Source: Streptomyces sp. NBC_01314 (lineage in GTDB: Bacteria > Actinomycetota > Actinomycetes > Streptomycetales > Streptomycetaceae). From it: a DNA stretch of 64,000 nucleotides. Below are positions 1 to 9,208 of the stretch, piece by piece. Location of the stretch: positions 5,208,001-5,272,000 of the forward strand of contig NZ_CP108394.1 in assembly GCF_041435215.1 (NCBI RefSeq), in the 5' to 3' direction. Every line of letters begins with the position of its first letter. The stretch's first letter is position 1. A program made the translations under genes and the position numbers. A model generated the notes under the pieces. It did not search any database and was not told the DNA's origin. It worked only from the letters and a program-made list of their open reading frames with translations.

Positions 1-285
1 GCTGCCCTGACCACGCCCGCGTGGTCAGGGGACTGGGACACCGTGGGGTTCCCTGACTCCCCCGGCCGCGCCTACTGGCGCGACGCGGAGTGGCGCGTGG
101 AACACCAGGACCCATACCGGCTTGCGGTGTGGTCCTTCAGTACGCCGGGAGCACCGCTGATCGTGCTCAAGGCGAACCTCGCGGCGGGGACGGCTGCAGG
201 ATGGGGCCCCGGCAGTGCGACGATCTCTCTCGCCTGCCACGGCCCGGCCGACCCAGACGATGAGGGGCCCGGCTGGTCATTGTGA
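1..285 (+). CDS. C-terminal fragment of a small conserved protein, paralogue of the next gene
   Basis: The reading frame is open at the left window edge and ends at TGA 285, so only the last 94 codons are visible. It aligns with the end of the next gene: both have W-x-G-x-W, F-P-x-x, a segment E-x-Q-x-P-x-R-L-A-x-W (here EHQDPYRLAVW) and G-A/P-L-I/V, followed by a short polar tail. The two are therefore tandem paralogues 20 bp apart on one strand. The general pattern (short, Trp-rich, Streptomyces-specific) resembles proteins labelled DUF6301, but that assignment is from memory and tentative. Function unknown. An internal ATG at 43 is not a convincing start because coding similarity continues upstream of it. 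Confidence 0.6.
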   Translation, partial: AALTTPAWSGDWDTVGFPDSPGRAYWRDAEWRVEHQDPYRLAVWSFSTPGAPLIVLKANLAAGTAAGWGPGSATISLACHGPADPDDEGPGWSL

Positions 286-305: not shown

Positions 306-932
306 ATGGGAATCACTTCGGGCCGACAGGCCCGCACTCCGCAGGAATTGGTCACCGAGCTGCGCGGCTTGGCGGACGTTGACTGGCCCACCATTTGGGA
401 CGGGCCGCCCTACCCGGGCAAGGGCCTGGACATGTGGTGCGCCCAGTTCAACTGGGTGCCAACCAGCTTCGAGCGTGTCCTCGAGGTACGCACCGACACC
501 GACGGCAGCTTCCTCCTCAACAATCTGGCCGGCAGCTGGGCTCCGGTGACCAACCTCAGCCACTGGCTCTGGGGAGCCGGCGCCGAAGCCGTCGAAGAGA
601 ACACCGCTCTCCTGACAGAAGTGGCCCGCGTCTGGCCCGTGTATCTGACGGCCGCCTGCTCGGTTCTGGACGAGCCGACCTGGGAGGGCGCCTGGGCCGC
701 CGAGGACTTTCCCGAGAATCTCGGCAATCACGACGTCGGGTCACGCGCCTACCGGCTCGAGCAGCAGAACCCGCACCGGTTGGCGTACTGGATGCCTCGT
801 GAAGCAACCGGCCCACTGGTGATCATGGAAGTCTCCCTCAAGGCCGACACCGCTGGGCCGATGCCCCGCCGGGGCGCCGCCAACCTGTCGATCAAATTCC
901 ACCCGCGACCGGTCGAGATCGGAGGACTGTGA
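306..932 (+). CDS. small conserved Trp-rich protein (possible DUF6301-type), paralogue of preceding gene
   Basis: A 208-residue soluble protein with no signal peptide or membrane segment. The N-terminal part has an LRGL-x-DVDW segment followed by an aromatic FNW motif. The C-terminal third matches the preceding gene (EQQNPHRLAYW versus EHQDPYRLAVW), so the pair arose by duplication. The ATG at 306 sits behind AGAGGTG at about -9. Its stop overlaps the GTG start of the next gene (GTGA at 929-932), so it is translationally coupled to the cyclase-like gene. An immunity or accessory role for that protein is plausible from position alone. No function can be read from the sequence. Confidence 0.75.
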   Translation: MGITSGRQARTPQELVTELRGLADVDWPTIWDGPPYPGKGLDMWCAQFNWVPTSFERVLEVRTDTDGSFLLNNLAGSWAPVTNLSHWLWGAGAEAVEENTALLTEVARVWPVYLTAACSVLDEPTWEGAWAAEDFPENLGNHDVGSRAYRLEQQNPHRLAYWMPREATGPLVIMEVSLKADTAGPMPRRGAANLSIKFHPRPVEIGGL

Positions 933-2005
933 GTCCGCAGCCAATACCCAGATATATCGAACGGCTCGCTCTAAAGTTCGCCAATGAGGAAGCCGAACGG
1001 GCACGGCAGGCGAACACGAAGGAAGGCTCCCAAGCCATAGCACGTCGTCTGGAAGCCGAATCCGACGCCGCAAACTTCACCTCCGTCAAGGAATACATCA
1101 AGAACCTGACCGAGGATGTCGAAGGCGTCGAAGCTCCGGACGGAACCACCCCGACCAGCGCCTTCTGGTCACACGGAATCCCACACCCCGACGCGCCAGT
1201 GAACTGGCGGAACGAGCATTTCCTCGACAACCGTTACATAGCGGAGGCCTGGGCCAAAACCCAGAACCAACGGAATCGCGAATCGGCCCAAACCCTCGAA
1301 ACGACAGACGGGGGTCGCAGGCTGAACGAGATGTACCTCTTCGAAGGCGCCGTCCGCGAGGCACTCGGTGGAGAGGATCAAGGCTTCACCTACGGGTGGG
1401 CCCGCGAATGCTGGGCTGGCATCTCCGAGACCTATGCCACCGCGGCCAAGGGCCCCGTCGTCGTGTTCGCCGAGACCGCCCACACCCGTTCGATCCTCTA
1501 CAACCAAGAGCTCCCCACCCTCCACACCAACGAGCACGTCGGCCTGGACAACATCAACTTCGCCTATCCCGCGCCCAAGGAATGGCCGAAGGAGACGCGC
1601 ACCGAGGTCGGCACCCATGCGGTTCGTGCCCAAGTGCAGGTCGATGACCCGTCACTCCCGCACTACATCGACCCCACGGCCTATCCGACGCAGGATCCCG
1701 CCGCCCGTGAGGCCGCCGTGGGCGCCGAATGCGCGGCCGTGACAGCCGAACGCTCGGAACGGGCTGCGGAGGCGGCCACCGCCCCCACCACCGAGACGAA
1801 GGCCCCAGAAGCCGAATCGCCCGCACGGGAAGCACCGGAGCAACCCGCAGCCAAGAACCCTGCCACCTCCATCCCCGTGTGGCAGGTCGGATTCAAGCCC
1901 ACCCCCGTCAAGCTCGAAGCCGGCGCCTCCGGCCCGACCACCCCATCGACGGCCCCGCCGACCCCCGACCTCGAAAAGCAGTCCGCAGCACCGGGGCTGG
2001 AATGA
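929..2005 (+). CDS. ADP-ribosyl cyclase/CD38-like NAD-consuming protein (putative)
   Basis: A 358-residue protein starting at GTG inside the stop of the previous gene. Residues 122-201 mimic the CD38/ADP-ribosyl cyclase core: TLE-x-T-x-x-G at 122-129 matches TLEDTLLG of CD38 (catalytic E146), CWAGISETYATAA at 161-173 matches FWKTVSRRFAEAA (W189), and NQELPTL at 192-198 falls where CD38 has E226. The spacings E124-W162-E194 (38 and 32) are close to CD38 (43 and 37). A partner for W125 could be W108 or W80. Residues ~255-358 are an Ala/Pro/Glu-rich tail ending with a P-V-W-Q-V-G-F motif shared with the 6461-9208 protein. If real, it would hydrolyse or cyclise NAD. There is no secretion signal. 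The match is by eye, not by profile search. Confidence 0.6.
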   Translation: MSPQPIPRYIERLALKFANEEAERARQANTKEGSQAIARRLEAESDAANFTSVKEYIKNLTEDVEGVEAPDGTTPTSAFWSHGIPHPDAPVNWRNEHFLDNRYIAEAWAKTQNQRNRESAQTLETTDGGRRLNEMYLFEGAVREALGGEDQGFTYGWARECWAGISETYATAAKGPVVVFAETAHTRSILYNQELPTLHTNEHVGLDNINFAYPAPKEWPKETRTEVGTHAVRAQVQVDDPSLPHYIDPTAYPTQDPAAREAAVGAECAAVTAERSERAAEAATAPTTETKAPEAESPAREAPEQPAAKNPATSIPVWQVGFKPTPVKLEAGASGPTTPSTAPPTPDLEKQSAAPGLE

Positions 2006-2625
2006 AGCCCCCCGCCGACCTCCTGCCGAGACTCCGTCGCCTCCTCCACCAGGACAAGACCGACCCCTGGGCCGTCCGCCTCCTCCCCCGCATCGTCTTC
2101 GGCCTGGCCGCCGCCTACACCCTGTTCTCGATCGCCTCGCAGAGCGGCTCATCCTTCGTGATGGTCTGCGCCATGCTGCTGCTCGGCGGAGCCGTCTGGC
2201 TCCTCCGCCGTCGCACCCAACTCCTCCTCGCCCTAGCCTCGACGATCCTCGCCGCAGCCTTCACCGGCTACTTCTCGGCGGTGGGTGAATCGGCCCGGAT
2301 GACCACGAGCGCGGCCGTCACCGGAACCGCCGCGTTCGGCTACTGGGCCCTGACCGGAATGGCCTTGCTCGGCGCCTGGATGGTGAAGGAGCACCCGGGC
2401 CGACGCGGTGTCACGGTCGTGCTCGCCGATGTGATCCTGGTCATCGGGTCCCTCGCCGGCATGTTCGTCCCGGAGGCGGGCGTGCCGATCGGATTCGTCG
2501 GGGTGCTCGCGGTGCTCGCCGTACGCGGTTCGGGCGCGAAGGCTGTGCGGGCCCGGGCCGGCAGGCTTCGCCAGGTCATCGGTCGACCACGTCGGCGCGA
2601 CGCCCGGAAAACGGCGGACAGTTGA
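2002..2625 (+). CDS. small integral membrane protein coupled to the cyclase-like gene
   Basis: A 207-residue protein whose ATG overlaps the previous stop (ATGA at 2002-2005), so it is the last gene of a coupled operon. After ~28 polar residues it has about six hydrophobic segments (for example IVFGLAAAYTLFSIA, MVCAMLLLGGAVWLL, LLLALASTILAAAF, GYWALTGMALLGAWM, VVLADVILVIGSLAG, IGFVGVLAVLAV). It ends in a strongly basic cytoplasmic tail. No known family is recognised. Coupling to a putative NAD-targeting enzyme suggests an export, membrane-anchoring or immunity role, but the sequence does not show which. Confidence 0.75.
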   Translation: MKPPADLLPRLRRLLHQDKTDPWAVRLLPRIVFGLAAAYTLFSIASQSGSSFVMVCAMLLLGGAVWLLRRRTQLLLALASTILAAAFTGYFSAVGESARMTTSAAVTGTAAFGYWALTGMALLGAWMVKEHPGRRGVTVVLADVILVIGSLAGMFVPEAGVPIGFVGVLAVLAVRGSGAKAVRARAGRLRQVIGRPRRRDARKTADS

Positions 2626-2752: not shown

Positions 2753-4357
2753 ATGCGTATGGCAAGCCATACGACGCTGGCCAGGCTGCCCGCCCGACCT
2801 GCCCGCAAGGCGGTCGACCGGGAAGCCCACATACCCGACGCGGCGTTGCCGTGCCGGCGTAGGCCGGACGTCTTCCAGCACCCGCTTCTGGACAACTCGG
2901 AGCACCCGCACGGCCTTTACGCCCCGGACGGTACGCCGACAGCGGCCGCAGCCACGGGCGTCTCGCCCGACCAACGCCGGCAGCACCTCGTCCTGCTCCG
3001 CACCGCGCGCGACCTGTGCGCCTCCTGCCCCCTCTGGGCGGAATGTCTCCAGGACGCCGTCGCGTACGCGGAGCCGTACGGCTACACGGCGGCCACCACC
3101 CGGGAGGACCGGCGTTCGCTGCGCCGCACGCTCGGCATCGGCGACGAGAACGGTGACCTGCCGGCCCACGCCGAGGTCCGCTTCGACTCCGGTTCCGTAC
3201 CCCGGCGGCTGACCCGGCTCAGGTCCCGAGCCGACGGGTCGTCGGCGCCGCCCGGATCCCACCGCCCGCTCGCTCCGGACCTTCCCGAACTGGAGCGGGT
3301 CCTCGATGCGTTCGACCTGCTCCAGGGTCAACTGGCCCATGATCAACCTTTGTTGAGGGAATATCCCCAGCGCGCCGCGTTGACAACGCAGTTGCACTCG
3401 CACATCACCACACAGACAACTCACAGACAGACGCCCGGACCGGGCGCGTCGTCGCACACACCCGGACCGCCGGACGACAGGAGCGAGGAACCCATGGCAG
3501 CGGCCGAGGCCGGGCAACGGATCACCTTCTCGTACGAGGATCCCGCCCTGGCCGTACGGCAGGCCGTGCTCGGCCCGCTGGTGCGCTCCGCCCTCCCCGC
3601 GCTCACCAGCCTCGAACGGCTCGTGGCCCTGCTGACGTGCATGCCCGGCGGCACCGACACGGCCCCTGAATCCCCTCAGAACCTTCCGGCCGTACGGAAA
3701 GCCGTCGAGTCACTGCTCCCCGACGGCGCCGACGCCCCCGAGGACGCCGAGGGCGCACCCCTCCCTCCCGGGCGCCCACTCACCGGCTCCGTCTCCGTCG
3801 AACTCGCCACCACCGACCCGGTGGCCGCGCTGCGCCGCGACTTCCTGGAACCGCTGTTGCGTGAACTGGCCGCCACCCTCGCGAACATAGAGAAGGTCGC
3901 GACGATGCTGGCGGCCACCTCGGACGACGCCGACGGCGCCCATCTGGAGACCATCCGCACGGCCGTGCGCGAGATGCACGACCGCCTCCCGCGGTCGGTC
4001 GCGCTCACGCCCCACCCGGCGACCCACTCCGCACACCCCGCGCACGCCGGACACCCGGCCGCGGGGACGGGAGCCGGCGCAGGACATGGTGGCCGCCGTA
4101 CGCCTTCCGCCCCCAGCATCCGCGCCGCCGTCGAGAAGGCCGTGGCCACCTTCCCCGGCGCCTTCTCCGCCCGCGACGTGCTGCGCGCCCTGCCCTCGGG
4201 CGTCTACGGCGACCCGTCGAAGACCATCAGCAACATCCTGTCCGCGCTGGTCAAGTCGGGCCGCCTGCAACGCCTCTCGCGCGGCACGTACGCTCGCGTC
4301 CTGGACGTCGTCGACGACACGCTCCTCCCCGAGCGGGGAGAGGCGAAGAGCGCCTGA
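2753..4357 (+). CDS. large WhiB-like (Wbl) domain protein with C-terminal winged helix
   Basis: 534 residues from ATG 2753, chosen over an upstream in-frame start because promoter and ribosome site precede it. The N-terminus has a Wbl iron-sulfur pattern: C34, then C89-x2-C92-x5-C98, then a glycine turn (PYGYTA) and TTREDRR. The gap between the first and second cysteines (54 residues) is much longer than usual. A long Pro/Ala-rich central region carries two similar helical segments (each with L-GPL/EPLLR, then 'E-R/K-V-x-x-LL'). Residues ~455-520 look like a winged helix (FSARDVLRALPSG, then KTISNILSALVKSGRLQRL). Wbl proteins bind [4Fe-4S] clusters and act with sigma factors. Most are ~80-130 residues, so this is an unusual fusion, probably a redox-responsive transcription factor. 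Confidence 0.65.
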   Translation: MRMASHTTLARLPARPARKAVDREAHIPDAALPCRRRPDVFQHPLLDNSEHPHGLYAPDGTPTAAAATGVSPDQRRQHLVLLRTARDLCASCPLWAECLQDAVAYAEPYGYTAATTREDRRSLRRTLGIGDENGDLPAHAEVRFDSGSVPRRLTRLRSRADGSSAPPGSHRPLAPDLPELERVLDAFDLLQGQLAHDQPLLREYPQRAALTTQLHSHITTQTTHRQTPGPGASSHTPGPPDDRSEEPMAAAEAGQRITFSYEDPALAVRQAVLGPLVRSALPALTSLERLVALLTCMPGGTDTAPESPQNLPAVRKAVESLLPDGADAPEDAEGAPLPPGRPLTGSVSVELATTDPVAALRRDFLEPLLRELAATLANIEKVATMLAATSDDADGAHLETIRTAVREMHDRLPRSVALTPHPATHSAHPAHAGHPAAGTGAGAGHGGRRTPSAPSIRAAVEKAVATFPGAFSARDVLRALPSGVYGDPSKTISNILSALVKSGRLQRLSRGTYARVLDVVDDTLLPERGEAKSA

Positions 4358-4380: not shown

Positions 4381-4662
4381 ATGACCGAACCGATCCCGAG
4401 TCAGGGTCCGCCCCCGCCCGCCGCGAACCCCGGCGCCTCGGACGCCCAGGTCCACGTCTTCTCCCCCAACGCGGGCCTTATCGACGGCGTCCCCGTCACC
4501 GCCCCGCCCTACGGCGACATCCAGGACGTCGTCCTGTCGATCCTCCAACAACGCGCCCAGCAGCTCGGCGCCCCCACCCCGGCCACCATCACGGACAACC
4601 GTTACGGCGGCGCCATCCGCCTGCTGATCCACCCGGACGGGACCACGGAACAGCTGGACTGA
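4381..4662 (+). CDS. small hypothetical protein downstream of the Wbl fusion
   Basis: A 93-residue protein whose ATG at 4381 follows the Wbl gene by 23 bp and is preceded by GGAAGGA at about -18, so it is probably co-transcribed. The N-terminus is Pro-rich. The remainder alternates hydrophobic and polar residues (VHVFSPNAGLIDG, then YGDIQDVVLSILQQRAQQLG, then RLLIHPDGTTEQL), suggesting a small alpha/beta domain. No signal peptide or membrane segment. Function unknown. Confidence 0.65.
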   Translation: MTEPIPSQGPPPPAANPGASDAQVHVFSPNAGLIDGVPVTAPPYGDIQDVVLSILQQRAQQLGAPTPATITDNRYGGAIRLLIHPDGTTEQLD

Positions 4663-5826: not shown

Positions 5827-6399
5827 TCACTCCCTGGGGTCGGTACTGCCGGGCGGGGTGTTGTGCTTGTCGATGTTGGCCAGGACCGCGCGGGCGTCTC
5901 TGACGTTCATCTCCAAGATGTCGCGGTCGAAGTTGCCGGGGTCGCGCCGGTATCGGGCCTTGCCCACCTCCGACACAAAGGCACGGGCTGGGATGGCATC
6001 CTGGCCCGGCGGAAGAAATTTGAGCATCTCCTCGTAGGCGGCGACGACGTAGGCCATCGCTCCCCGAAGCCTGTGGTGCTCGGACTCGGGGGTGTTGAGG
6101 AGCTGAATTCCAGTGGATTCGGCGAGCCGACCCGCGACCGCCTCGAACTCCCCTGGGTCGATGATCTGCGACGGCTCCGCACCACCGAACGCCGGCGGGG
6201 GCGGGGGAATCTCTTCAATCATGCGGAATTCGAAACGGCGGGTTCGTCCGCACTGCCCACAAGCACCCTCGTATACCGCGACCAGGTCGTCGCCGTGCAG
6301 TTCCAGTCGGTGTTGGCGGTCGAATTCGCCCGACCCGCACTCACAGCGATGTAGGTCCATGTACAGATGTGCTTCGGCCGATGAGCGCGCTGTCAACAT
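5827..6399 (-). CDS. zinc-ribbon protein divergent from the 915-residue protein
   Basis: 190 residues. The N-terminus holds C-x-C (HRCECGSGEF) and CGQC (residues ~20-50), a probable zinc ribbon. A Pro-rich loop and a helical C-terminal domain follow (AYVVAAYEEMLKFLPPG, then ALVANIDK-like ends). The start at 6399 is uncertain, because ATG at 6360 (MDLHRC) is equally possible and neither has a strong ribosome site. It diverges from the large gene at 6461 with ~60 bp between them, so the two likely share control. Function unknown. Confidence 0.6.
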   Translation of the reverse strand: MLTARSSAEAHLYMDLHRCECGSGEFDRQHRLELHGDDLVAVYEGACGQCGRTRRFEFRMIEEIPPPPPAFGGAEPSQIIDPGEFEAVAGRLAESTGIQLLNTPESEHHRLRGAMAYVVAAYEEMLKFLPPGQDAIPARAFVSEVGKARYRRDPGNFDRDILEMNVRDARAVLANIDKHNTPPGSTDPRE

Positions 6400-6460: not shown

Positions 6461-9208
6461 GTGGACACGACGGTCACCGACGCACGGTTGCGAGCCCAGC
6501 AGGCGGCGCTGATCGCGACGGTGAAACGTGAGCTGCGCACGGTGACGTCCGTCGTATTCGGGGAGCGATTCAGGTCGATCGACGAGAAAGTGGCGGAGGA
6601 CGGCAGAGAGTACTTCACCCTGGAGGACACCCAGGGCGGCTCGGCCGACCTCTGGTTGGACGCCATTCCCATGGTCTCGGGAATGGTCTCCAACACCATG
6701 ACGAACACGACGACGGATCAGTACGTCGTGCAGATTTCCGACCGTCTCCCCAGCGAATTCCTGACCCGTGTCCTCGCCCACGAGGTGGGCGAACTCATCG
6801 CCGCGCGCGACCGGTCGAGCCAAGGTCTGGCACCGGTACGCGAGAACCTCTTGCACCAAGAGGCCGACATCGGCGGTCGGCACGATTTGTCGAGCCAAGA
6901 CCACGGACGCGTCGCCGAGCTGAACTGGCTTGCCGCCCAGGCCTCTGACACGGAACTTTCCAGCCCACAACGCGCCGAGGCTCGTGCCGGTCTCTCGGCA
7001 CTGCTGGATCAGTGCGGTCTACGACCGACAGCGGCCATAGCTGAGCAGGAGGTACATGCGACTGAGCTTGAGGCAGCTGAAACACGGCGCATTCTCTCCA
7101 AGGATTTCCTCTCCTCCCGGGCCAAACGCCTGATCGCCACCCTCGCCCACCCCATAGAACACCTCGACCCCACCGACGCCACCGCCCTCCAAGCCTCCCG
7201 CGACGCCGCCCTACGAGCCGAGCGCCAGGTCGAGGCCTTCATCGGCCGGCGCGACGTCACCATGCCCATGCCGGGCTACGACCAGAACGGACTGCCGCTC
7301 CCCCGCGACCAGTTGGCGACGGCAGCCACCCAATGGGCGGAATACCGCGCCCAGGTCAGCGAGCGAACGGCGCAGGCGATCGAAGGGCAGTTGGCGCAGG
7401 GCGAGTTCCCGTCCCGCCGTGTGGTGATCGGCGGCGGGGCGAGCCTGACCGGCCGGGACACGGACGCGCTGCTGATCGACGGGGCGGGCCGGTGGCACCT
7501 GGACCCCGGCCGGGGCATCGTGCAGTCGGCGGACCAGGACCGGGACCTCGCCCAGTGGATGGGAGTCGATCCGCACTCCACGGTCGAGCGGCCCGGGGAC
7601 CGCCTGCCCATCGAGGCCGTACGGATCTGGGAGGACCAACTCGCCACCCGGGGAGACCTGGTGAACGGTCACGCCCGCCTGCGGCTCGGCCGGAACGGCG
7701 AACTCCTCGCCGAGATCCAGAGGCCGCAACGGACGACCGGGGACGGCAAGGAGGCCCCGCCCCCACTGTGGGTGGCCTGCGACGGCACCCCGAGCATCGC
7801 CACCGGTCTGACCCCCGAGGTCGTACCCGGCATGCCACGCGGCGAACACGCCGTGGAGAGCCGCAGCGAGGCCGTACGGCTGATCGGTGACCGGCTGCGG
7901 GAGTTGGCGGAGCAGGGTCTGGCCGGGGCGGGCGAGCTGCGGGCCTGGCTGACCCGGGCCGAGCCGGGCGGCACGGACGCCCGTACCGTGCTCGGCGCCC
8001 TGAAGTCCTCGCCGCTGATGGACGCCCTCACGGCCGGCCTCGGCCCCGACAAGGCCCGCATGGGCAACTGCTTCGGCGCCCTCGACTCGACCGCGAAATG
8101 GGAGTCGGCCCGCGATGAGGCTCCCGGACGGGTACTGCTCGGCGACGAGGTCGCCGAGAACCGCTTCGACGCACAACGGGCCGAACACTGGGTCGTCGCG
8201 GGCTCCGGCGGCACCGGAGTCGCCAACGCGGAGATCATCCTCACGCAGAACCCGGACGCCCACGTCACGATCATCGGCTCGGCGCCGCCGCCGGCGTTGC
8301 AACATCAGGTTCAGTTCCCGGCGATGGAGAAGGCGTACGGCTCGGAGGGTGACGGGCGCCTGACCTTCATCAGGGCGCGGGTGGGAGCCATCGAGACCTA
8401 CCAGGACGAGAAGACCGGCGAGACCCGCTTCCAGATCCCCTACGAAGAAGGAGAGGGGGAGACCAGGGAGCGGAAGGTGCTCCGGACCGACGGCTACGTC
8501 ACCAGCCTCGGCCGTACCAACCCACTCCCGCCCGCCCTCCAGGTCCTCGCGAACGAGGTCCGGGACCGAGGCGGGCAGATCTCCGGGGACCTTCAGTTCG
8601 ACAAGGACGACCAGTACATCGGCTACGGCCTTACCTTCACCGTCGACGGCAAGGAACACCGGGTCGATGTGGACGGCGCGGCCTCCTGGCAGTTGCCGCG
8701 CGAGATCTTCGCCCCGGAGACCGGCCTCCAGCAGCAGTTGAACGAGATGGGCGCCCGAGGCCTCCCCGCCGAGACCGGCAACGCCGCCCCCGGCTTCGCC
8801 CCGATCGCCCGGCAGAGCGCTCTGCGCGCCCGGGCAGTCGCGGCGGTGCAGGCGGGTGACGAGAGCGCCGTGCAACGGAGGTCGACCATCCCGGAACGCT
8901 GGCGTCGCCCGAACCTGGCCCCGGAAACCGCCCCGGAGACGGAAGCACCGGGCAAGGGCCCCGCGAACGCCGCCCCACCGCAGAAGGAGAACCAGCCGCG
9001 ACAACAGACTCCCGCGGCCGAGCGGACCCTGGGCCCGCCTTCCCCCACCGACCGGGCGCCCGACCGAGCCGCGCCCGACACGCCCCTGTGGGAGGTCGGC
9101 ATGCCCCGGCGCGGCACCCCCCGCGCGCCGCGCCCCACCACCCAGCAGCCCCAGCAGCCGCCTCCCGGCCAGGAGCGTCCTCACCCGGGGCTCGGTGTGG
9201 GCGACTGA
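6461..9208 (+). CDS. 915-residue multidomain protein with HEVGE motif and Rossmann-type nucleotide-binding fold
   Basis: The N-terminal domain has FLTRVLAHEVGELIAARDR (H107-E108...E111), reminiscent of a metal-binding helix but lacking HExxH. A middle region has RVVIGGGASLTGRDTDALLI. Residues 576-600 carry VVAGSGGTGVANAEII (G-x-G-G-x-G at 581-586), a nucleotide-binding turn, followed by strands typical of FAD/NAD oxidoreductases (HVTIIGSAPPP, then TDGYVTSLGRTNPLPP). The last ~110 residues are a low-complexity Pro-rich tail with PDTPLWEVGMPRRG, resembling the tail of the 929-2005 protein. There is no signal peptide. GTG at 6461 follows GGGGGAGGAA. I do not recognise a named family; a large effector or toxin is a possible reading. 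Confidence 0.65.
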   Translation: MDTTVTDARLRAQQAALIATVKRELRTVTSVVFGERFRSIDEKVAEDGREYFTLEDTQGGSADLWLDAIPMVSGMVSNTMTNTTTDQYVVQISDRLPSEFLTRVLAHEVGELIAARDRSSQGLAPVRENLLHQEADIGGRHDLSSQDHGRVAELNWLAAQASDTELSSPQRAEARAGLSALLDQCGLRPTAAIAEQEVHATELEAAETRRILSKDFLSSRAKRLIATLAHPIEHLDPTDATALQASRDAALRAERQVEAFIGRRDVTMPMPGYDQNGLPLPRDQLATAATQWAEYRAQVSERTAQAIEGQLAQGEFPSRRVVIGGGASLTGRDTDALLIDGAGRWHLDPGRGIVQSADQDRDLAQWMGVDPHSTVERPGDRLPIEAVRIWEDQLATRGDLVNGHARLRLGRNGELLAEIQRPQRTTGDGKEAPPPLWVACDGTPSIATGLTPEVVPGMPRGEHAVESRSEAVRLIGDRLRELAEQGLAGAGELRAWLTRAEPGGTDARTVLGALKSSPLMDALTAGLGPDKARMGNCFGALDSTAKWESARDEAPGRVLLGDEVAENRFDAQRAEHWVVAGSGGTGVANAEIILTQNPDAHVTIIGSAPPPALQHQVQFPAMEKAYGSEGDGRLTFIRARVGAIETYQDEKTGETRFQIPYEEGEGETRERKVLRTDGYVTSLGRTNPLPPALQVLANEVRDRGGQISGDLQFDKDDQYIGYGLTFTVDGKEHRVDVDGAASWQLPREIFAPETGLQQQLNEMGARGLPAETGNAAPGFAPIARQSALRARAVAAVQAGDESAVQRRSTIPERWRRPNLAPETAPETEAPGKGPANAAPPQKENQPRQQTPAAERTLGPPSPTDRAPDRAAPDTPLWEVGMPRRGTPRAPRPTTQQPQQPPPGQERPHPGLGVGD

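Follow-up and report, generated by a model that had tools for sequence, protein, structure and literature searches.

Gene content of the locus

The window analysed here, a stretch of 64,000 nucleotides from Streptomyces sp. NBC_01314 (G000:C1:5208001-5272000), begins inside a gene block one member of which, ARC, encodes a protein with a predicted ADP-ribosyl-cyclase fold. A sequence-only reading of the same DNA had placed this gene in an anonymous operon, a description that no longer applies, as a chromosomal locus for a type IV secretion system (T4SS), situated to the left of the window, precedes it. The features on which the argument turns are the following (aa, amino acids).

1..285, plus strand: DUF-A, the C-terminal part of a 209-aa paralogue of DUF-B; the gene starts left of the window, at about G000:C1:5207656
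306..932, plus strand: DUF-B, 208 aa, a candidate partner of the cyclase acting in immunity or as a chaperone; its stop overlaps the start of ARC
929..2005, plus strand: ARC, ADP-ribosyl-cyclase-fold protein of 358 aa (open reading frame, conservation, fold and profile comparisons)
1166..1168, plus strand: codon of W80, in SAFWS; kept in 32/32 aligned sequences; paired with W273 of the PDB entry 9ro8 only in a sub-threshold stretch of the alignment
1298..1300, plus strand: codon of E124, in TLETT; 32/32; counterpart of CD38 E146 and 9ro8 E299 by motif
1412..1414, plus strand: codon of W162; 32/32; profile-aligned with 9ro8 W323 (our own count)
1508..1510, plus strand: codon of E194; 32/32; profile-aligned with 9ro8 E356; counterpart of CD38 E226
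1874..1894, plus strand: motif PVWQVGF (residues 316-322) in the disordered C-terminal tail of ARC, a candidate recognition signal

The ARC frame is uninterrupted from a GTG start, with GGAGG at positions 921-925, and shares this start with the stop of the DUF-B gene in a GTGA overlap; at its other end it overlaps, again by a few bases, the gene of a membrane-type protein (2002..2625). A protein search recovered at least 47 relatives, all from Streptomyces where the organism is named (a few are without a name), and the residue conservation given above and below was counted over 32 aligned sequences, i.e. the ARC of the window and 31 of the 47 homologues. The ratio of nonsynonymous to synonymous substitution rates (dN/dS) is 0.26-0.37 in all four pairwise comparisons of ARC. 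The protein contains only two cysteines and, judged by eye, no apparent signal peptide; its cyclase-like part spans approximately residues 26-276, the remainder forming a C-terminal tail.

Catalytic residues and fold of ARC

The sequence-only reading had interpreted ARC as a CD38-like cyclase on the grounds of three motifs, TLETTDGG, CWAGISETYA and QELPTL. These are indeed present and contribute E124, W162 and E194 at the spacings of 38 and 32 residues that it had given, and the interpretation is now supported by the agreement of fold prediction, profile ranking and invariant residues. Comparison of the ARC model with the structures of cyclases finds a CD38-type fold. When the profile of the ARC family (A1) was run against 177,635 PDB sequences, the top match was 9ro8 (E 0.0033), followed by 9ouf (E 0.26), which we take to be the structure of Tac1. 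The profile aligns W162 and E194 with a tryptophan and a glutamate of 9ro8 (W323 and E356 by our own count), whereas the equivalence of E124 is indicated by its motif and by its falling within the region that the structural alignment covers, not by an explicit residue pair. Residues invariant in all 32 sequences comprise W80, T122-L123-E124-T125, G129, W162, S166, Y169 and E194. W162 and W80 presumably correspond to W189 and W125 of CD38, respectively, and E194 takes the place of the essential glutamate of this fold family (CD38 E226, Tac1 E573, ARCtox E356).

Both E146 and E226 of CD38 are named as positions in PMC12356396, according to which the second glutamate of Tac1 and CD38 drives the hydrolysis of cyclic ADP-ribose (cADPr), its replacement leading to cADPr release, and Nac1, which is devoid of it, yields cADPr and ADP-ribose in roughly equal amounts. 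The invariance of E124 thus predicts that NAD(P)+ is hydrolysed and cADPr not set free, and ARC is likely, as judged from sequence comparison and modelling, to be an NAD(P)+-hydrolysing enzyme.

This bears directly on the notion that ARC is a Nac-like signalling cyclase that would make cADPr as a signal of its own, for example in hyphal development. Nac1 from the actinomycete Actinophytocola oryzae does make cADPr and is not located beside known parts of polymorphic toxins (PMC12356396), which lends the idea some appeal, but Nac1 has an alanine at the position of the hydrolase glutamate and a predicted signal peptide, against an E124 kept in 32/32 sequences and no apparent signal peptide in ARC. 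The patchy distribution of ARC, found in its own genome only among 61, likewise speaks against such a role, and we regard it as very improbable.

The neighbouring type IV secretion locus

In all five loci with sequence upstream of the gene (the window, L003 and L005-L007), ARC follows a chromosomal T4SS locus. To the left of the window the order is: a VirD4/TraG-type coupling protein and a VirB1-type hydrolase (both on the minus strand), TcpC/VirB8, a TrbC/VirB2-type pilin, a TcpE-like protein, VirB4, lipoprotein genes, a VirB6-type protein, DUF-A, DUF-B and ARC. Three further genes follow ARC.

2002..2625, plus strand: membrane-type protein, overlapping the ARC stop; 56-82% identity in 5/5 related loci; the EccD transmembrane domain of Pfam matches at E 0.02 only, below the cut-off
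2753..4357, plus strand: WhiB-like/AbiEi-like regulator, present in 5/5 related loci (WhiB E 4.8e-7; AbiEi_4 E 2.4e-4, below the cut-off)
4381..4662, plus strand: 93-aa protein (p93), 62-99% identity in 5/5 related loci

The assignment of the machine components rests on profile matches of VirB4 (AAA_10, E 8.8e-30), TcpC/VirB8 (E 6.4e-32), TrbC/VirB2 (E 1.8e-7) and VirD4 (TraG-D_C, E 5.8e-32; T4SS-DNA_transf, E 6.1e-19), on the M23 and NlpC/P60 domains of the VirB1-type hydrolase, and, for the VirB6-type protein, on CD3337/EF1877 (E 1.4e-11) and TcpF (E 6.8e-22) matches, each below the family cut-off. The TcpE-like protein, a label of our own, shares 37-41% identity with counterparts encoded in T4SS loci on plasmids.

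The order from VirB8 through VirB2, TcpE, VirB4, lipoprotein, VirB6, DUF-A, DUF-B and ARC to the membrane protein, the WhiB-like regulator and p93 is, among five other Streptomyces loci, the same in all three that reach VirB8 (L005-L007). In L003 the order is retained from VirB4 onwards, apart from an additional cassette that separates VirB6 from DUF-A; the contig of L004 starts at DUF-A. Identity to the proteins of the present locus amounts to 84-98% for VirB4, 74-81% for TcpE, 52-57% for VirB6, 48-56% for VirB8 and 42-67% for ARC. By eye, the block is flanked by clpB and by the genes hspR-dnaJ-grpE-dnaK, and a dnaJ match on the same side in L004 supports the right flank.

Two side observations concern these genes. 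L003 contains a second, divergent cyclase-type gene (L003:7450-8667), 30% identical to ARC, with the residues W, E, W and E kept, a DUF pair of its own in front (53% and 44% identity) and a tail with LPGVxV, so that tandem cassettes stand behind one type IV locus. VirB4 (L002:8973-11969) matches mad8 of PADLOC (E 5.4e-10), which probably reflects a related ATPase of the VirB4/HerA type.

The DUF-A/DUF-B pair

DUF-A and DUF-B are 40% identical over 193 aa, and DUF-A is present in 5/5 related loci (L003-L007). For DUF-B we collected 63 homologues; its structural model is confident (pLDDT 90.3) and its fold matches are weak. Imm74 matches none of 37 DUF-B members at E 0.1, nor, at E 1, the part of DUF-A in the window or the protein 2002-2625; DUF6301 (PF19818) does not exceed the cut-off for DUF-B either (one member of 37, at E 0.036 only). 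DUF-B finds a match in 2/41 genomes, the second covering one of the two halves of a longer G013 gene (L012:7655-9094). The other half of that gene is DUF-like by eye, no T4SS gene was recognized nearby, and the gene may represent an orphan immunity determinant.

The C-terminal tail and a second candidate cargo

The last 90 residues of the ARC family are disordered and variable except for a few positions: P316, W318, Q319, G321 and F322 are invariant in 32/32 sequences, and G356 and P346 are kept in 31/32 and 28/32, respectively. PxWQxGF occurs within the last 80 residues of 45/47 homologues, and so does the more general form WQxG[FVMI], which is lacking in P0047, named as partial, and in P0048, aberrant by eye. 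A similar tail is found on a protein encoded about 4 kb downstream.

6461..9208, plus strand: 915-aa protein with a similar C-terminal tail, candidate second cargo; 84 homologues
9083..9103, plus strand: tail motif PLWEVGM of the 915-aa protein, 34 residues before its C-terminal end
5827..6399, minus strand: 190-aa partner gene, divergent from the 915-aa gene, candidate immunity gene

Outside the tail the two proteins are unlike, the comparison of the 915-aa protein with ARC yielding no significant match (best E 0.15, one such match lying in the tail). A stretch TLEDTQGG at about residues 53-60 of the former (6617-6640) resembles TLExTxxG of the cyclase, probably by chance (blastp E 6.8). Among the 84 members of the 915 family, WQxG[FVMI] is found in 46, [LVIQ]WxxG in 72 and LPGVxV in five (two of these five also among the 72), and 75 have [LVIQ]WxxG or [FWY]LPGVxV; the nine exceptions include P0126 and P0183, named as partial, and P0127, P0189, P0192 and P0193, which have almost the full length but end in different tails. 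DUF-B lacks both WQxG[FVMI] and LPGVxV (0/63), and a scan of 312 called genes with the tail pattern gave seven matches, all of the ARC type. A G[LMVI][GDEA] ending within the last eight residues is shared by 41/47 cyclases and 72/84 members of the 915 family, with 0/63 for DUF-B; it occurs in 21/437 called genes, eight of which are cyclase or 915 genes.

L003 has no 915 match, and its 93-aa gene is directly followed by a Uma2-like gene, so the 915 module looks inserted. Relatives of the 915-aa protein reside on seven plasmids, five loci of which were examined (those of NBC_01186 and NBC_01187 are near-identical there). T4SS genes including one of VirD4 type lie within about 20 kb of the 915-type gene in 4/5 of them, and a homologue of the 190-aa protein (36-53% identity) stands beside it in 4/5, two near-identical; in three loci this gene is divergent, whereas in one it occupies the opposite side. 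The fifth locus is crowded with transposases. The 915/190 pair looks, by its gene context, like a pair of toxin-immunity type accompanying T4SSs, and the tail appears to go with the chromosomal and not with the plasmid form. The 915 relatives of L039, L042 and L043 (Streptomyces plasmids) and L041 (a Micromonospora plasmid) are within about 20 kb of SCO6880-type conjugation genes.

Phage defence often relies on NADases, and ARC might accordingly be a resident defence or exclusion enzyme, restrained by DUF-A/DUF-B, that would kill or arrest its own cell upon entry of foreign DNA or a rival conjugative element, the T4SS locus being a linked remnant of conjugation. The lack of an apparent signal peptide and the two cysteines of ARC, the overlap of its frame with the gene of a small protein, and the WhiB/AbiEi-type regulator in the block would all suit this proposal. 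It leaves, however, a tail motif kept in 45/47 homologues without an obvious use in a resident enzyme, the comparable tail of a second protein points to a handler shared by both, and PADLOC has no match for ARC, DUF-B or the 915-aa protein, only mad8 for VirB4. Overall, we consider resident defence rather unlikely.

Distribution and mobility

ARC was found in one of 61 genomes searched, its own. The same holds for VirB4, searched with a 489-aa piece at E 1e-20 (1/41 genomes), so the locus is not genus-wide. Matches of the TcpF family occur in 5/41 genomes, the own one included, and other VirB4 types do occur; a scan of the called genes of the four other TcpF genomes (L024-L027) for LExTx2[GA] gave one match, taken as stray. 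As a candidate relative of the locus we dropped the cmd cluster (cmdABCDEF, SCO4126-4131), for which an orthologue of the VirB4-like CmdB kept across Streptomyces would be expected, the VirB4 piece being confined to the own genome among the 41; the likeness lay in the gene order, no SCO sequence (SCO4127 included) having been compared. That cluster has been tied to sporulation (PMC2782261).

VirB4 is related to VirB4 of Rhodococcus plasmids (35%) and of a plasmid from Streptomyces anulatus (56% identity along 57% of the query). The latter, NZ_CP109401.1 (L013/L014), is the best plasmid VirB4 match by identity; it has TcpE-, VirB2-, VirB6- and VirB8-like genes in a cluster that spans the start of the record, and no cyclase or DUF match. 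Together with the closeness of 915-type and T4SS genes (up to about 20 kb apart) in 4/5 plasmid loci, two of them near-identical, this relationship would fit a locus that still moves DNA, with ARC and the 915-aa protein co-injected not as weapons but as helpers of the DNA, for example against the defences of the recipient. Yet relaxases of the PF03432 and PF08751 families find no match in the whole own genome at E 0.01, a result that favours protein over DNA transfer within the limits of a search with two families (MOBC, MOBT, MOBV and MOBH, which we take to be further relaxase families, were not searched). Moreover, no relatives of ARC were found in the plasmid, phage and viral-contig collections, and the block sits between clpB and the dnaK operon (by eye; dnaJ is on the same side in L004). 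We thus hold the helper scenario to be distinctly unlikely.

Comparison with known systems

Bacterial cyclase domains associated with type V, VI and VII secretion systems (T5SS, T6SS and T7SS) were predicted in 2012 (PMC3482391), and the predictions were tested in two papers from 2025 (PMC12356396 and PMC12605009). Tac1 of Streptococcus parasanguinis, a T7SS-linked ADP-ribosyl cyclase toxin of the LXG/T7SSb type, has an immunity protein of the Imm74 family (PMC12356396), whereas ARC has its catalytic part at the N-terminus, a possible signal at the C-terminus, a T4SS as a neighbour and no Imm74 match. ARCtox of Pantoea ananatis (PDB 9ro8) is fused to PAAR and delivered by a T6SS (PMC12605009); ARC is instead encoded beside a T4SS. 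Human CD38 and the Aplysia cyclase share 14-20% identity with ARC in the structural matches, ARC differing from them as a bacterial protein with two cysteines and no apparent secretion signal. In layout, ARC is not a classical polymorphic toxin: no N-terminal trafficking domain is seen in Pfam, and the extra part of the protein is C-terminal.

The routes of delivery named in a section of PMC12605009 are T6SS, T7SS, T5SS of the two-partner kind and surface domains, with T4SS not among them; in its excerpts, which cover part of the four occurrences of 'type IV', such systems appear only in a general list, and one Streptomyces mirabilis protein is included in its Fig. 5. By term search, neither type IV systems nor Streptomyces are mentioned in PMC12356396, and no T4SS-linked ADP-ribosyl cyclase turned up among the titles and abstract beginnings of the matches listed from the open-licence PMC literature. 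The enzyme itself extends a known fold family by one member; what is novel is its linkage to a Gram-positive type IV system with a conserved C-terminal tail.

Antibacterial T4SS effectors of the Stenotrophomonas/Xanthomonas type were identified through a C-terminal consensus and a neighbouring immunity gene (PMC8262851); their hosts are Gram-negative, and the likeness is one of description, the C-terminal sequences not having been compared. The 89K element of Streptococcus suis carries a Gram-positive T4SS with VirB1, B3, B4, B6, B8 and D4, proposed to export protein (PMC12857230), but its cargo is the protease SspA-1, and 89K itself is moved horizontally by its T4SS.

A candidate cargo of a type IV machine

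The explanation we prefer, with a probability only slightly better than even, is that ARC is a CD38-fold NAD(P)+ hydrolase carried as cargo by the adjacent type IV machine and held or escorted by DUF-A/DUF-B. In hand are the fold by prediction, the catalytic residues by conservation, the linkage to the machine and the conserved tail, from which we infer the activity, the role of the pair, the recognition of the tail, the transfer and the harm to a recipient. ARC would thus be an NAD(P)+ glycohydrolase/cyclase whose active site is lined by W80, E124, W162 and E194, with E194 essential; by analogy with Tac1 and CD38, the kept E124 would have cADPr hydrolysed on to ADP-ribose, the net effect being depletion of NAD(P)+. 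The protein would be made in the cytosol, where the co-translated DUF-A/DUF-B may keep it harmless or escort it; the VirD4-type coupling protein would recruit it via its C-terminal tail (PxWQxGF and the glycine-rich end), and the adjacent chromosomal machine would pass it into neighbouring cells. For the export step taken separately, i.e. that this machine translocates ARC as a protein, we see about even chances.

A number of observations weigh against this explanation. With respect to the enzyme, the single ARC sequence has no PDB match up to E 10 and none in Pfam or NCBIfam (searches of PHROGs and PADLOC with it were likewise negative), no A1 member matches any Pfam cyclase family, the Foldseek E-values of the ARC model are 0.015 or worse, and the CD38 structural matches fall in the range graded as a possibly common arrangement, only 9ro8 and 9ouf lying above it. 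With respect to the machine, VirD4 and VirB1 are seen beside the cyclase in the own genome only, the other loci not reaching that far; conservation does not cleanly part machine from cargo; the DUF pair finds no counterpart among known immunity families; and in 3/4 other carriers PF03432 does match, at a place away from the cyclase, on contigs that differ in length from the one carrying it, provided that the assemblies compared are the same. As for the tail, a DNA pattern of the motif has two matches in the whole own genome, in the ARC and 915 genes, 7.2 kb apart, but a reversed control pattern also has two, so the number is unremarkable, and only the closeness and the position in both tails argue for a meaning. 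Both tails are also proline-rich, the 915 family has a less strict motif (46/84 with WQxG[FVMI]), and the plasmid 915 relatives, beside other types of T4SS, lack the tail in 5/5 cases.

The cargo explanation can be extended to a more tentative proposal, to which we give somewhat less than an even chance: the chromosomal type IV machine of Streptomyces, lacking a recognizable relaxase, would be a dedicated protein injector, and tails with PxWQxGF and a glycine-rich end its cargo tags. Such tags, with WxxG and LPGVxV as looser variants, would be common to an NADase and to the unlike 915-aa protein, each encoded with small partners.

Whether Gram-positive T4SSs have become dedicated translocators of effectors is described as a long-standing question in a 2025 review, which gives one case, that of S. 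suis, apparently the first (PMC12857230). If ARC is cargo, enzyme delivery by a Gram-positive type IV machine would have one of its rare examples here, and type IV systems would join T5SS, T6SS and T7SS as delivery routes of CD38-type toxins; if the injector proposal is true, a new class of effectors would be added to Gram-positive type IV systems. The locus offers a compact test of these ideas, combining a single machine, an enzyme whose reaction is easy to measure, and one short tail.
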